Shown here piece after piece: positions 49,716 through 61,965 of a stretch of DNA of 64,000 nt. Position 1 is the first letter of the stretch. Each line of letters begins with the position of its first letter. The position numbers and the translations under genes are program-made. The notes under the pieces were generated by a model. That model worked only from the letters and a program-made list of their open reading frames with translations, did no database searches and had not been told where the DNA came from. Origin of the DNA: Candidatus Binatia bacterium (GTDB lineage Bacteria > Desulfobacterota > Binatia > UBA12015); contig JAQWRY010000086.1 of assembly GCA_029243485.1 (NCBI GenBank), positions 620,001 through 684,000 on the forward strand, in the 5' to 3' direction.

Positions 49716-49828
49716 GCGTGCGATTTAGCCGTCACCCGGAATGCCTGCAATTCAAGGGCTTTCACCGCCTGTGGACCCCGGGATTGCGGGTCTTGGGAGC
49801 GTGGCTCGAAGGCGGTACTCAACATGTC

Positions 49829-51097
49829 ATGCGTTGGGTTGCGAATCTGGGTCGCCTGGTCGTTGCGGGGTGGCTCGCGATGGGTCTCGGAGGCTGCGCC
49901 ACCGAGTCGGTCGGGGAGATTCCGCCCGTCGCCGTGTCGGACGCCGCCGAGGATTGGGGGCAGGTCGCGACGGTGCCGAGCGGTCGTCCGGATCACCGGG
50001 TCTGGGTCCAGGATAGGGTACTGCAGCACTCTCTTCTGTTCGACGGAGACACCGGTGAGATGTTGGGCGCGGTGGACACGGCGAGCGGTGTCGGTGCGCG
50101 GCCGGTCTACGCCGCCCAGGGCCGCGGCGAGGTCTACTCGATCGAGACGTACTATTCGCGTGGCTTGCGCGGAGCGCGCACCGACCAGGTCGTCGTCTAC
50201 GATGCGAAAGATCTCGCCGTGCAGGCGGAGATCGAGATCCCTCCCACGGCCGCCGACACCGGGCAGGGGATCGCGCTGGGTGCGGTTCTCGACGGCGAGC
50301 GCTTCTTCGTGGCGCTGAACCAATCGCCCGGCTCCTCGGTCTCCATCATCGATCTCGAGGAGCGGCGGCTCGTGACGGAGATCGTGACGGGTGGCTGTTC
50401 GATGGTCTACGCGGTCGGGCCCCAGCGCTTCGGCATGCTCTGTGGCGATGGGACCGCGCTCCTGGTCGAGTTGGATGCGCAGGGAAACGAGGTTCGGACG
50501 ACTTCGAGCGATACTTTTTTTGACGTGGTGGCCGACCCGGTCACGGTCTCAGGCGTGCGCGACGGCACCACGTGGTCGTTCGCTTCATTCGACGGCATGC
50601 TCCACCAGATCGATTTCTCGGGTGAGAAGCCCGTCGCGCGCAAGCCCTGGTCGCTCTTCACCGAAGCCGAACGAAAGGCCGAGTGGAAGGTCGGTGGCTT
50701 CCAGCATCTGGCCCTGCATTGGGCTTCGGGTCGGCTCTACTCGGTCGTCCATCAGACGGACAAAACGGGAACTCACAAGGATCCCGGTCTGGCGATCTGG
50801 GTTTACGATTCCAAAACGCACGAGCGCGTGATGGAGATCGAAGCGCCGAACGTGCTGATACCGTTTGTCCGGCCCTTCCTCGAAATCGAGAAGGACAGCT
50901 TCGCCGTAAGGGTTCTGGGTTACCTCTTGCCTCCACCGGGGGTCCACACGATCGCGGTCACGCAGGACGACGCGCCATTGCTGTTCGCCCGCAACGTCGA
51001 TTTGGGCGCGGTCGGCGTGTTGGATGCGATGTCCGGCGAGCACCTGCGCGACCTCGAGCAGGTCGGTCTTTCGGGCGCGACCCTGGTGGTGCCGTGA
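49829..51097 (+). CDS. mauB: Amine dehydrogenase heavy chain (MauB/AauB type), predicted lipoprotein
   Basis: 422 residues forming the seven-bladed propeller of a TTQ amine dehydrogenase. Family matches include TYYSRGLRGARTDQVVVYDAK, TGGCSMVYAVGPQRFGMLCGDG, PWSLFTEAERKAEWKVGG, LHWASGRLYSVVH and DPGLAIWVYDSKTHERV. The signal peptide ends in LGGC (Cys 23), a lipobox, whereas characterised heavy chains are soluble periplasmic proteins. The last codons overlap mauE (GTGA). Whether methylamine or an aralkylamine is used cannot be read from sequence. First gene of the operon. Confidence 0.9.
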   Translation: MRWVANLGRLVVAGWLAMGLGGCATESVGEIPPVAVSDAAEDWGQVATVPSGRPDHRVWVQDRVLQHSLLFDGDTGEMLGAVDTASGVGARPVYAAQGRGEVYSIETYYSRGLRGARTDQVVVYDAKDLAVQAEIEIPPTAADTGQGIALGAVLDGERFFVALNQSPGSSVSIIDLEERRLVTEIVTGGCSMVYAVGPQRFGMLCGDGTALLVELDAQGNEVRTTSSDTFFDVVADPVTVSGVRDGTTWSFASFDGMLHQIDFSGEKPVARKPWSLFTEAERKAEWKVGGFQHLALHWASGRLYSVVHQTDKTGTHKDPGLAIWVYDSKTHERVMEIEAPNVLIPFVRPFLEIEKDSFAVRVLGYLLPPPGVHTIAVTQDDAPLLFARNVDLGAVGVLDAMSGEHLRDLEQVGLSGATLVVP

Positions 51098-51636
51098 CGC
51101 TCGACCCATTGCTCGATGGGACGCTTCGCGGTTCCCTCGCACTGCTGTTCGCCTGGTCGGCGAGTCACAAGTGGCGGGATCTGCCTCGCTTCGCCGCGGT
51201 GGTGCGTGAGTACGAGGTGTTGCCGGTGGGTCTGGAACGTCCGGCGGCCTTGGTTCTCGGTGCTTTTGAGGTCGTGATTGCGATTGCGCTTCTGGTGCCG
51301 GCCGCACATGGATCGTCGAGTGTTGCGGCGGCCGCTCTGCTGGCGATCTACACGGCGGGCATCATTCTCAATCTGGCGCGCGGCCGGCGTGATCTCGATT
51401 GTGGGTGCTTCGGTCCCGCCCAGCGCCAGCCGCTCAGCGAATGGCTCGTGCTCCGCAACGTTCTGCTTCTCTTGGCGGCACTCGTCGTCGGGTTGCCGGC
51501 CGGGGCTCGGTCGCTATCCGCCCTCGACGCCTTCGCGGGCATAGCAGGGTGCACGACGCTCGCGATGCTCTGGACCTCGGCCAATCAGCTCGTATCGCAG
51601 TGGCCGCGCATGCAGGCTGTCCGGAGGTCGCCATGA
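51094..51636 (+). CDS. mauE: Methylamine-utilisation membrane protein MauE
   Basis: 180 residues, five predicted membrane helices (SLALLFAWSASHKW, PAALVLGAFEVVIAIALLVP, SVAAAALLAIYTAGIIL, LVLRNVLLLLAALVVGL and one C-terminal). DCGCFGPA in a loop is the MauE/DoxX signature. MauE and MauD are needed for stable light-chain formation, presumably disulphide bond transfer across the membrane. GTG start overlaps mauB and the stop overlaps mauD (ATGA). Confidence 0.9.
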   Translation: MTLDPLLDGTLRGSLALLFAWSASHKWRDLPRFAAVVREYEVLPVGLERPAALVLGAFEVVIAIALLVPAAHGSSSVAAAALLAIYTAGIILNLARGRRDLDCGCFGPAQRQPLSEWLVLRNVLLLLAALVVGLPAGARSLSALDAFAGIAGCTTLAMLWTSANQLVSQWPRMQAVRRSP

Positions 51637-52238
51637 TCGAGGCTCTCGTGATTTCCAACGTGCTGCTCTGGGTCGTGGTGCTCGTGCTCGCCGCGATCGT
51701 CGTGGCGCTCGCGCGGCAAGTCGGAGTTCTGCACGAGCGCGTCGCGCCGGTGGGCGCGCTCGCGACCGCGGAGGGGCCGGCCGTCGGCGACGCCGCGCCC
51801 CAGTTCGATCTGGTGGACGTCGAGGGGCGCGAATGGAGTCTCGGAGGCGCGCGTGAAGCCGCGACGCTTCTGTTTTTCGTGTCGCCGACCTGTCCGGTCT
51901 GCAAGACGCTCCTGCCGACAGTCGAACGGGTGGTCGGCCGCGAGGGTGCGGTATCCCTGATGCTCGCGAGCGACGGGCCGATCGAGGAGCATCGCTCGTT
52001 CGTCCAAAAGCACGCGCTCGACCGGTTCCCGTACATCCTCTCGACTGAACTCGGACGAGCCTTTCAGGTGGCGAAGCTCCCGTACGCCGTCCTCATCGAC
52101 GAGGCCGGGGTGGTTCGAGCCAAGGGCATCGTGAACACCCGGGAGCACGTGGAGAGCCTCTTCGCGGCAAGTGGTCTCGGGGTGGCGTCGATCCAGGAAT
52201 ATCTCGACCAGCGCACGTCTCGCGCGGAAGCGGTGTAG
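51633..52238 (+). CDS. mauD: Methylamine dehydrogenase accessory thiol-disulphide protein MauD
   Basis: 201 residues. One N-terminal membrane helix (VLLWVVVLVLAAIVVALA) and a thioredoxin-fold periplasmic domain with CPVC in SPTCPVCKTLLP and the cis-Pro loop KLPYAVLID. It forms or isomerises the many disulphides of the light chain. GGAGGT precedes the ATG. Twelve bases separate it from mauA. Confidence 0.93.
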   Translation: MIEALVISNVLLWVVVLVLAAIVVALARQVGVLHERVAPVGALATAEGPAVGDAAPQFDLVDVEGREWSLGGAREAATLLFFVSPTCPVCKTLLPTVERVVGREGAVSLMLASDGPIEEHRSFVQKHALDRFPYILSTELGRAFQVAKLPYAVLIDEAGVVRAKGIVNTREHVESLFAASGLGVASIQEYLDQRTSRAEAV

Positions 52239-52250
52239 GAGTAAGGCGCG

Positions 52251-52799
52251 ATGAGTGTGCTCGATCGTTGGTTTGAAGGGATGACGCGCGGCCTCGCGCG
52301 GCGCTCGGGTCGCAGGAGCTTTCTTGCTCGTGTGGGCCTGGGGCTGGTCGGGGGCGCTGCGGTGCCTCTCCTGCCGGTCGCGCGAGCGGCGAAGGGTCCA
52401 GCGCGTGTGTCGGCCGCACCCGAAGACATCGAGGGTCCCGAGGGCGACTCGCAGGATTGCGAGTATTGGCGGTACTGCGCGATCGACGGTCTGCTCTGCG
52501 GCTGTTGCGGGGGATCGACTACCGCGTGCCCGCCGGGGACGGAGATGGCGCCGGTCACATGGGTCGGTACTTGTCGCAATCCGGCCGACGGGAAAGATTA
52601 CATCATCTCGTACAACGACTGTTGCGGGAAGAAGGTGTGCGGGCGTTGCTTCTGCAACCGCAACGAGGGGGAGCGGCCCGCTTATCATTGGTATCGTAAC
52701 AACGACATCAACTGGTGTTACGGGACGAAGTCGCAGGTATATCACTGCTCCGTCGCCATCGTGCTCGGTGTCGCCGTCGAAGGCCAACCGGAGAAATGA
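52251..52799 (+). CDS. mauA: Amine dehydrogenase light chain carrying the TTQ cofactor
   Basis: 182 residues. A Tat signal (RRSGRRSFLARVGLG) exports the folded protein. The mature part matches MauA: CEYWRYCAIDG, CGCCGGST, VTWVGTC, YNDCCGKKVCGRC and INWCYG. Trp104 and Trp155 are 51 residues apart, exactly as the TTQ-forming pair of the Paracoccus enzyme, and Asp123 lies 19 after the first Trp as the catalytic Asp does. Fourteen Cys fit a disulphide-knotted fold. Followed after 4 bp by the UGA-containing SelW-like gene. Confidence 0.95.
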   Translation: MSVLDRWFEGMTRGLARRSGRRSFLARVGLGLVGGAAVPLLPVARAAKGPARVSAAPEDIEGPEGDSQDCEYWRYCAIDGLLCGCCGGSTTACPPGTEMAPVTWVGTCRNPADGKDYIISYNDCCGKKVCGRCFCNRNEGERPAYHWYRNNDINWCYGTKSQVYHCSVAIVLGVAVEGQPEK

Positions 52800-52803
52800 C
52801 CCG

Positions 52804-53025
52804 ATGAAGATCTCGATCGAATACTGCGGCCGTTGAAACTACCTGCCCCAGGCCTCCAGTTTGGCGGCCACATTGACAGCGAAGTTCCAGGTCGAGCCCG
52901 AACTCATCAAGGGGGACAACGGCGTCTTCGACGTCGTCGTCGACGGGAAGAAGATCTTCTCAAAGCACGAGACCGGTCGGTTCCCCGAGGAGAGGGAGAT
53001 CGTAGACGCGCTCGGCGACGGATGA
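52804..53025 (+). CDS. SelW/Rdx-like selenoprotein with in-frame UGA
   Basis: Reading through TGA at 52834-52836 as selenocysteine gives a 73-residue protein, ISIEYCGRU then NYLPQASSLAATLTAKF, a VFDVVVDGKKIFSKHETG core and GRFPEEREIVDAL end. This is the whole Rdx (SelW/SelT/SelH) fold, with the active-site CxxC as CxxU. Codons after the TGA keep the high third-position GC of neighbours. The real stop at 53023-53025 overlaps the next ATG (ATGA), so coupling to the cytochrome gene needs read-through. Standard gene callers end it at codon 10. Sits directly after mauA. Confidence 0.85.
52851..52869 (+). promoter_or_regulatory. Candidate bacterial SECIS hairpin
   Basis: A stem GGCC(T)CC / GG(C)GGCC with loop AGTTT begins 14 nt after the UGA, the range where SelB-bound bacterial SECIS hairpins lie, and the loop contains a GU as the apical loop does. 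The stem is short, so its assignment is tentative. Confidence 0.4.
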
Positions 53026-53438
53026 GATCGGGAGCCGCGATCACCGCCGCACTCTGCGTGGAGCTTTGGGCGATGCCCGTCGTCGCTCAGGTCCCGCCAG
53101 AACAAGACTACGTTCTGCACTGCTCGGGCTGTCATCGCCCCGATGGTTCGGGCGCCCCCGATGAGGTCCCCAGCCTCGTGGGTCTCGACCGCTTTCTGCG
53201 GCTCCCCGAGGGGCGGGCGTACCTGATTCGGGCTCCTGGAGTCGCGCAGGCCCCGGTGACCGACGAACGCCTCGCGGCGCTGATGAACTGGGTGCTCGTC
53301 GAGTTCGGCGGGGCCGGAGTTTCTCCCGCGTACACCGCAGCAGAGGTGAAAAAATGGCGTGCCCTGCCGCTCCGCGACCCGACGGAGCTTCGCGCGCGAC
53401 TTCTCGCCGGCCCCGAGGTGGCCGCCGAGGTTCGTTGA
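53022..53438 (+). CDS. Monohaem cytochrome c, probable amine dehydrogenase electron acceptor
   Basis: 138 residues. Signal peptide (AAITAALCVELWAMPVVAQ), haem site LHCSGCHRPDGSG, candidate distal residues in the VPSLVGLDRF and following region. No amicyanin (mauC) gene is present, so this cytochrome is the natural acceptor from the TTQ enzyme, linking it to the caa3 oxidase. Its ATG overlaps the SelW-like stop. Confidence 0.85.
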   Translation: MRSGAAITAALCVELWAMPVVAQVPPEQDYVLHCSGCHRPDGSGAPDEVPSLVGLDRFLRLPEGRAYLIRAPGVAQAPVTDERLAALMNWVLVEFGGAGVSPAYTAAEVKKWRALPLRDPTELRARLLAGPEVAAEVR

Positions 53439-53513: not shown

Positions 53514-53970
53514 TTGCGCGAACTGCACGCCGGGTCCTTCCTGATGCCGAACTCGTGGGATGTCGGGTCGACCCGGATCCTCGGCTCTCTGGGGCTCGAG
53601 GCACTCGCGACGACCAGCGCGGGCTTGCCTCCACGCGTGGCCAAAGGACGGTGACGTGACCCGCGATGAGGCGATCGGGCACGCCGATGTTCTCTACGCA
53701 CCTGGCTTGAGCGATATCGGGGACATCCGGAGCGTCGTCGCGGCCGTCGATCGACCGCTCAACGCACTCGTGTTGCCCGGTGCGTCCACCGTCGCCGAGA
53801 TCTTCGAAACCGGCGTGGCTCGAATCTCGTTTAAGAGCGCGTTCAACCTGGCGACGAACGCAGCGCTCGTCGAAGCCGCGAACGAAATCCTCGGTCCCGG
53901 CGCGACCGCGTTCTGGACGAAGACACTCGAATCGGCGGGGGCGATCAACGAGGCGTTCAAGGGCTCCTAG
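53514..53970 (+). pseudogene. Decayed isocitrate lyase/PEP mutase-family gene
   Basis: The first frame reads LRELHAGSFLMPNSWDVG and SLGLEALATTSAGLP, the standard N-terminus of the family, and stops at TGA 53652. In the +1 frame DVTRDEAIGHADVLYAPGL continues, but the roughly 110 residues expected between RDEAIGHA and DVLYAPGL are missing. Then DRPLNALVLPGASTVAEIFE and RISFKSAFN are the true C-terminal half. A frameshift plus an internal deletion removes most catalytic residues, so it is non-functional. No good start codon remains. Confidence 0.85.
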
Positions 53971-60717: not shown

Positions 60718-61788
60718 CTACTTCGGAAGGCTTCCCGGCGCCGGTGGCTCGGCGTTCGTCACGGGGCCGGTGAGCGCGAACATGAAGGCGACGAGGGCGT
60801 CGATTTCGGTGTCGCTCAGATTGAGCGCCTTCATCTTCGCGTCGAGGCCGGGGTTGGCGTTCCCGCCGCGATTGTAGAGCACCATTACGTCGCGCAGCGT
60901 CGCTTCCGAGCCGTCGTGCATGTAGGGCGCGGTGTCGGTCACGTTGCGTAGGGTGGGGGTCTTGAACTTGCCCTTGTCAGCGTCCTTTTCGGTCATGTCG
61001 AAGCGGCCCGGGTCGGCGAACTTCTTTCCCTTGGCGTCCCAGCCGACGCCCAAGTTGTGGTACATCTCGTCACTGAAGTTGAACGAGACGTGGCAGGTTG
61101 CGCAGTCGGCCTTGCCCTCGAAGAGCTCGAGCCCCTTCACCTGCTCCGCGCTCATCGCGCCCTTGTTCCCCGCGCGGTAGCGGTCGTACGGGGCGTTGCC
61201 GGCCAGAACCGTACGCTCGTAGGACGCGATCGCCTGCGCGATCCGGGGCATCGTGATCTCGCCCTTCCCGAACGCCTTCTCGAACAGGGGCGCGTAGCCC
61301 TGAAGTCGCGCCACCTCCTTCACCACGTCGTCGTGGGACGCCATCGCCATCTCGACCGGGTTCGTGAGCGGGCCGTGGGATTGCTCTTCGAGATCCTTCG
61401 CGCGTCCGTCCCAAAACTGCTCGGCGGAGAACAGGCGGTTTATCGAAGTGGGGCTGTTGCGCAGGCCGGTCAGGAACCCGACCCCGGAGGACGTCGGATC
61501 CGTATCGGCGAACCCGTGAAACGGGTTGTGGCAGGACGCGCACGAGATGTTGCCGTCTTTGGACAGCCGCTTGTCGAAGAAGAGCAGCTTGCCGAGCGAG
61601 ACCTTCTCCGCGCTGAGCGGGTTGTCTTCAGGGATGTACGCGGAGTCCGCCTGCAGGCCGAGAGGTAGAACCAACTCGTAGTCTCCCGACTTCACGATCT
61701 CGCGTTTGGGTTTGGCGTCTTCGGCAACCGCGGAGTTCGCGGTGAAGGTCGTCGCGACGATGGCAGCTATCAGTACGAGGGCATTCAT
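60718..61788 (-). CDS. MauG-type dihaem cytochrome c enzyme
   Basis: 356 residues. Signal peptide (LVLIAAIVATTFTANSAVA). Haem sites ISCASCHNPF and DCATCHVSF; FWDGRA holds the Trp between the haems. In TLRNVTDTAPYMHDGS and DVMVLYNRGG, the Tyr occurs 72 residues after the second haem His, where Pseudomonas peroxidase has its axial Met (74 residues). MauG uses Tyr as axial ligand there. The family (MauG/cytochrome c peroxidase) is clear; TTQ maturation is an inference. It is 7 kb from mauA, convergent with mtfA. Confidence 0.88.
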   Translation of the reverse strand: MNALVLIAAIVATTFTANSAVAEDAKPKREIVKSGDYELVLPLGLQADSAYIPEDNPLSAEKVSLGKLLFFDKRLSKDGNISCASCHNPFHGFADTDPTSSGVGFLTGLRNSPTSINRLFSAEQFWDGRAKDLEEQSHGPLTNPVEMAMASHDDVVKEVARLQGYAPLFEKAFGKGEITMPRIAQAIASYERTVLAGNAPYDRYRAGNKGAMSAEQVKGLELFEGKADCATCHVSFNFSDEMYHNLGVGWDAKGKKFADPGRFDMTEKDADKGKFKTPTLRNVTDTAPYMHDGSEATLRDVMVLYNRGGNANPGLDAKMKALNLSDTEIDALVAFMFALTGPVTNAEPPAPGSLPK

Positions 61789-61965
61789 GGTGCGCAGATA
61801 GCACGGCCTCTTCGTCTGCACATGGGTACGAGAAACGTGGATGCACGGCTCGTGTCTATCGGTGATGCTGTCGATTCCACGTTCTCACCCCAACCCTGAA
61901 CGCGCGCTGGTCTCGTCTCCCCCGAATCCTCCGCACCAAAAGCGCGTCTCGAAAGGAAGGCACCG

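Follow-up and report, generated by a model that had tools for sequence, protein, structure and literature searches.

Bacterial SelW-like Sec proteins were reported in 2005–2006 (PMC1088965, PMC1794560), and PMC1088965, in the portion available, describes their function as unclear, with a motif suggesting redox activity. For the SelW of Campylobacter jejuni, a Sec form like the protein described here, full-length translation through UGA is supported by Ribo-seq and proteomics; its ORF lies on an intergenic transcript, CJnc60, and the available portion of the paper gives it no link to amine oxidation, in contrast to the operon-borne gene that we describe (PMC11955535). The epsilonproteobacterial SECIS, in the available part of its description, is a hairpin of 5/6 bp that follows the TGA by a few bases and carries an invariant loop G, and some epsilonproteobacterial SelW-like genes had been wholly missed in annotation (PMC4607533). 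In mau/aau operons, the genes for the heavy chain, MauE, MauD and the light chain are followed by a cytochrome c-type gene. A literature search joining SelW, selenoprotein or selenocysteine with TTQ-type amine dehydrogenases yielded no paper on the subject, as judged from titles and the starts of abstracts, in keeping with the original prediction that a Sec redox protein in such an operon has no precedent. A search on MauD, MauE and disulphide likewise gave nothing on the subject among the partial records retrieved. Given a known SelW family and no paper placing it with these dehydrogenases, it follows that the locus holds a known kind of protein at a new address: the protein itself is ordinary, and what is new is its genomic position.

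The window (the whole 64-kb stretch of DNA analysed, positions 620001–684000 of contig C86) contains the operon on its forward strand, with the gene order heavy chain, mauE, mauD, light chain, selW, cytochrome c. It thus resembles known mau/aau operons and differs from them by the extra selW between light chain and cytochrome. The heavy-chain gene (49820–51097; PF06433, E = 9.6e-40) has a provisional start codon, the ORF being open from 49700. It is followed by mauE (51085–51636; PF07291, E = 1.5e-29) and by mauD (51624–52238; TIGR02661, 214.6 bits versus a cut-off of 188.6), which encodes an accessory protein that is thioredoxin-like and, by eye, anchored in the membrane at its N-terminus. 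Next come a mauA/aauA-type gene for a TTQ light chain of 182 residues (52251–52799; PF02975, E = 4.9e-52), with a twin-arginine leader by eye, then selW (52804–53025) and a gene for a cytochrome c-like protein with the motif CSGCH (53022–53438), whose start codon overlaps the selW stop. MauA contains 14 Cys, the number originally counted, and its Trp104 and Trp155, spaced 51 apart, are presumably the TTQ pair. The conserved Cys and the two Trp mark it as a probable TTQ light chain, with a predicted cross-link.

Compared with characterized enzymes, this one has aromatic amine dehydrogenase, and not methylamine dehydrogenase, as its nearer relative. The difference is clear for the heavy chain (157 versus 112 bits, with aromatic amine dehydrogenase as the nearest solved chain) and slight for the light chain (169 versus 165 bits). 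Both chains miss the strict methylamine dehydrogenase cut-offs (TIGR02659, 179.3 versus 196.85; TIGR02658, 139.5 versus 454.45). A MauG-like di-haem protein encoded at 60718–61821 on the reverse strand was considered as MauG and rejected, as it scores 258.2 bits against a MauG cut-off of 443.85 and is nearer to cytochrome c peroxidases. After the cytochrome gene, a window ORF at 53560–53970 has a match to PEP_mutase that is limited to the final 70 positions of that family; in a same-genus genome, G395, a frame that resembles it by eye extends to 335 residues, and the window ORF is possibly a gene remnant.

In selW (52804–53025, forward strand, stop codon included), the DNA runs ATG...TGC GGC CGT TGA AAC..., with its sole inner TGA at 52834–52836. 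In a mechanical list of ORFs of ≥80 residues, this frame stops at 52836. Read through the TGA, it gives a product of 73 residues that begins MKISIEYCGRU and contains a full Rdx domain (PF10262, E = 3.6e-19, 69.2 bits versus a cut-off of 22.6), which bears out the original prediction of a complete Rdx protein with TGA at the second active-site residue, YCGRU. The product also exceeds the cut-off of an existing NCBI model for SelT/SelW/SelH (seleno)proteins (NF041051, 92.9 versus 88 bits). Throughout the 6.5-Mb genome, selW is the sole PF10262 match at E ≤ 0.001, and this match contains one TGA. The final TGA (53023–53025) overlaps the next gene's ATG at 53022, so that the overlap originally described holds in the window. 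Modelled with Cys in place of Sec (pLDDT 87.5), SelW is predicted to adopt a thioredoxin-like fold, with a strand at residues 3–8 and the CxxU motif (YCGRU, residues 7–11) after this first strand. The model gave 22 PDB hits at E ≤ 0.001, all chains of seven entries that comprise bacterial SelW-related proteins and MIEN1 (TM 0.76–0.86 to the query); all seven entries also match SelW by sequence. In its length, its N-terminal-strand CxxU, its thioredoxin-like fold and its TGA followed by a hairpin with G in the loop, SelW resembles known bacterial SelW-like selenoproteins (PF10262; NF041051, TIGR02174), from which it differs by lying inside a TTQ amine-dehydrogenase operon.

Several lines of evidence indicate that the TGA at 52834–52836 (forward strand) is read as selenocysteine, residue 11 of the product. 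TGA is present in all 11 Sec-form sequences, the window included, and four other homologues have Cys at this codon. We searched the genome for selA, selB, selC and selD, and all were found: selA and selB are adjacent at C86:164965–168242, selC, with anticodon TCA, lies at C86:250416, also on the window's own contig, and selD is on contig C47 of the same genome (G000; 285 bits versus a cut-off of 125). This selD match (C47:88313–89227, L128) sits in an open frame of 766 codons, compared with 311 positions in the SelD model, and is perhaps part of a fusion. Genome-wide recoding of TGA as Trp or Cys is rejected, since mauA and selW themselves end in TGA; a binning error that mixed the window with foreign Sec genes is likewise rejected, since selA, selB and selC are on the window's own 763-kb contig. 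A search of the genome for formate dehydrogenase as a further selenoprotein matched 20 stretches, none of them over the family cut-off; none has an internal TGA, and one has a TAG. We infer from these sequence data that Sec is inserted at the selW TGA in this organism.

We then compared Rdx genes across 39 genomes, the window's own included. An Rdx with one inner TGA occurs in 10 of the 39, and in all ten, as well as in a contig filed as viral (L024), the TGA falls on the same codon. Three of the 39 have only a stop-free Rdx. One genome, G410, has both forms, encoded ∼4.2 kb apart on its contig C2 (68991–69212 and 73434–73646; L026, L037), one a Cys form and one a Sec form. Two genomes of the window's genus, G395 and G396, have the same mauA–selW(TGA) pair, with 78% and 70% identity. 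SelW is 73 residues long in each of these and in the window's genome, and the end stops of the three genes are TGA, TAG and TGA. After the inner TGA, dN/dS is 0.22, 0.33 and 0.11 for the three pairs, which is indicative of purifying selection on this part of selW in the three genomes. Thus, in the homologues the TGA is kept and the sequence after it is conserved. Of the two outcomes that the original prediction named as refuting it, a genome lacking selB/selC and homologues with a genuine stop and no conservation beyond it, neither was observed. A fourth member of the genus, G397 (96% complete), contains mauA and selA, and no Rdx match was found in its genome. Of the nine further genomes with a TGA-form Rdx, eight have a selA over the cut-off; only in G396, an 87% complete assembly, was selA not found. 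As selA also exceeds the cut-off in 19 of the 29 genomes without a TGA-form Rdx, the machinery is common in the group and independent of selW.

A bacterial SECIS-type hairpin follows the TGA in the window (52851–52869, forward strand), starting 14 bases after it. Positions 52851–52858 pair with 52862–52869, with loop GTT inside AGTTT, and seven of the eight pairs form, the one mismatch being U·C. Viewed alone, this hairpin is weak evidence, because 1.6% of 200,000 random synonymous recodings match its 7/8 pairs. The alignment of TGA forms is more telling. Each of the 11 sequences has 6–8 of 8 pairs (columns 18–25 with 29–36, counted from the T of TGA), and the four Cys homologues have 2–4 of 8. 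AGU is present at the loop in all 11; set against the epsilonproteobacterial SECIS, as far as its description is available, the shape is alike, and the loop side here reads AGU-Y-U in 10 of 11 cases and AGU-G-U in the viral contig (PMC4607533). The corresponding Ser codon is AGT in 11/11 Sec forms, a codon that accounts for 12 of 282 Ser codons in 13 reading frames of the window (window usage alone counted).

In the 11-row alignment, 84.1% of cells are paired, versus 70.8% in shuffled controls (0/500 as high). Double-sided changes affect five of the eight pairs (reached by 2/500 shuffles), and covariation is 0.355 versus 0.138 (0/500 as high). Further pair types number 7 versus 4.8 in shuffles, a less striking excess (18/500 as high). 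One caveat here is that the aligned rows are related, and hence the shuffle control overstates these differences, which are to be read as support and not as a probability. When the hairpin was slid by 1–3 columns, pairing fell to 31–41%. We also built a model (R2) from seven hairpin sequences outside the window's genus, with the viral row excluded. It finds the window and both sister loci (L028, L029) at 31.9–39.4 bits, scores that owe a part to protein-driven sequence similarity, and in a search of the whole genome the window ranks first (E = 3.4e-4; next, 0.22). The viral copy was not reported by R2, and an Rfam search of the 64-kb window gave no hit at or above a family's gathering score. 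Taken together, these comparisons point to a SECIS hairpin, with a G in its small loop, directly downstream of the selW TGA.

The Sec-form SelW of the contig filed as viral (IMGVR_UViG_3300017764_000306; L024, 1534–1779) has its TGA at the same codon, and its hairpin is kept by compensatory changes. Three other proteins of this contig gave no PHROG match, so we treat it as putatively viral. Searched against a phage collection, the viral SelW gave no match, and further viral scans returned the same contig alone, or nothing.

In the mechanism that we envisage, ribosomes would meet UGA at 52834, and SelB with Sec-tRNA(Sec) would be positioned by the hairpin at 52851–52869. Selenocysteine would be inserted at the UGA, and translation would continue to 53025, at the stop that shares bases with the cytochrome start codon. 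This would yield a small protein of the thioredoxin fold, whose active pair of Cys and Sec would carry out thiol/selenol redox chemistry. Its N-terminus begins straight with the first strand, with no signal peptide by eye; lacking an export signal, SelW would stay in the cytosol. The position of selW between mauA and the cytochrome gene suggests that it is co-transcribed, and presumably co-expressed, with the amine dehydrogenase.

How widespread is this arrangement? Our survey covered 95 mauA loci, the window's own included, made up of the best 80 of at least 572 confirmed mauA relatives and 15 further loci. At least three pairs share a contig (L028/L038, L118/L039, L020/L049), and L119 and L120 were omitted as repeats of L028 and L029. 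In a mauA search of the phylum, 5 of 395 genomes drawn had a match. Rdx is near mauA in four of the 95 loci, which represent three genomes only: the window's, G395 (twice) and G396. None was found near mauA in the remaining loci of the 95. The comparison with other mau loci that the original prediction proposed shows SelW neighbours, in the U form, in two same-genus genomes and nowhere else among the loci examined. As far as this survey reaches, selW in an aromatic-amine/methylamine-dehydrogenase operon appears to be confined to one genus.

A cytochrome-type motif is a far more regular neighbour. Two of the 95 loci have under 400 bases after mauA; in the other 93 we counted CxxCH, as a motif in three frames and not as a gene call, and found it within 600 bases after mauA in 81, namely the four Rdx entries, where it lies 322–341 bases after mauA, and 77 of the 89 others. 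Among 29 loci viewed, most have a cytochrome-like frame directly after mauA, with the exceptions, by eye, of L038 (selW first), L050 and L051. G397 has its cytochrome gene directly after mauA, with no selW between. Since three members of the genus have selW and G397 does not, either selW entered the operon within the genus or G397 has lost it. On the selW-free contig of G397 (C97, L137), the cytochrome gene is followed by a frame that by eye is aldehyde dehydrogenase-like, which fits amine oxidation. We had considered that the stop/start overlap might be kept in the sister genomes, an idea now dropped: the cytochrome start nearest to the selW stop of G395 comes 10 bases after it, and none that overlaps selW was found in G396. 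For the operon argument this matters only in a detail.

The address of selW could be accidental. It is quite possible, at somewhat less than an even chance, that selW is a passenger, a general cytosolic antioxidant or thiol protein that landed in the operon by chance and has no functional tie to amine oxidation. Against this, three diverged genomes share its location between mauA and the cytochrome gene, though inheritance alone could explain that. None of the remaining Rdx genes with an inner TGA has mauA within its locus (∼3.2 kb long, or 6.7 kb in the case of L024). Inspected by eye, the genes around them show no relation to amine oxidation and vary from group to group: one neighbour is common to L131 and L132, others accompany L133 and L134, and L130 has none of these. 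In G421, mauA and a Sec-Rdx are both present, on different contigs. The overlap of the selW stop with the cytochrome start, not being kept in the sisters, also fits a chance landing.

A closer tie was suggested by the original prediction, namely that SelW specifically matures the TTQ light chain, by disulphide isomerization or in cofactor formation. We regard this as improbable. The gene does lie directly 3′ of mauA in three genomes, and the 14 Cys of MauA can be counted in favour of a maturation factor. TTQ maturation, however, takes place outside the cytoplasm, and SelW has no export signal by eye, in contrast to the twin-arginine leader of MauA and the membrane anchor of MauD; these data speak against SelW acting directly on the mature light chain and favour a role in the cytosol. 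The operon already includes the dedicated MauD, plus MauE, and the other mauA loci examined have no nearby Rdx. As G397 has mauA without an Rdx match, SelW need not accompany the operon, and we find no support for the proposed part in handling the disulphides or the cofactor of the light chain.

That the TGA is a genuine stop, with a pseudogene or a ten-residue leader before a decaying Rdx remnant, might be entertained from its use as an ordinary stop here, ending mauA and selW itself, and from the genus member without an Rdx match, but it is rejected as most improbable, given that three genomes keep frame and sequence after the TGA (dN/dS 0.11–0.33), that the hairpin covaries and that the Sec decoding machinery is complete.

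Family cut-offs, the sel genes and the conserved TGA therefore uphold the central claim of a SelW/Rdx selenoprotein gene within an amine-dehydrogenase operon, and we consider it nearly certain, on sequence evidence, that 52804–53025 is a genuine Sec-containing SelW gene of this operon. As for what SelW does there, our guess is a cytosolic thiol-protecting role: co-expression perhaps ensures that the light-chain precursor with its 14 Cys, or other thiols of the cytosol that come under stress when amines are oxidized, stay reduced before export. In a more specific version, which we think rather unlikely, the TTQ amine dehydrogenase would have SelW as its dedicated helper: acting in the cytosol as a selenol reductase/holdase, SelW would hold the 14-Cys precursor of the light chain in its reduced state until the twin-arginine route exports it.

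For the SelW subfamily, the hairpin alignment provides a covariation-supported SECIS that extends over several bacterial families and one contig filed as viral. The link to the operon of one enzyme in three genomes, together with a genus member, G397, that lacks selW, offers a handle on the function of bacterial SelW. If SelW is indeed a dedicated helper of the dehydrogenase, this would give bacterial SelW a physiological partner.
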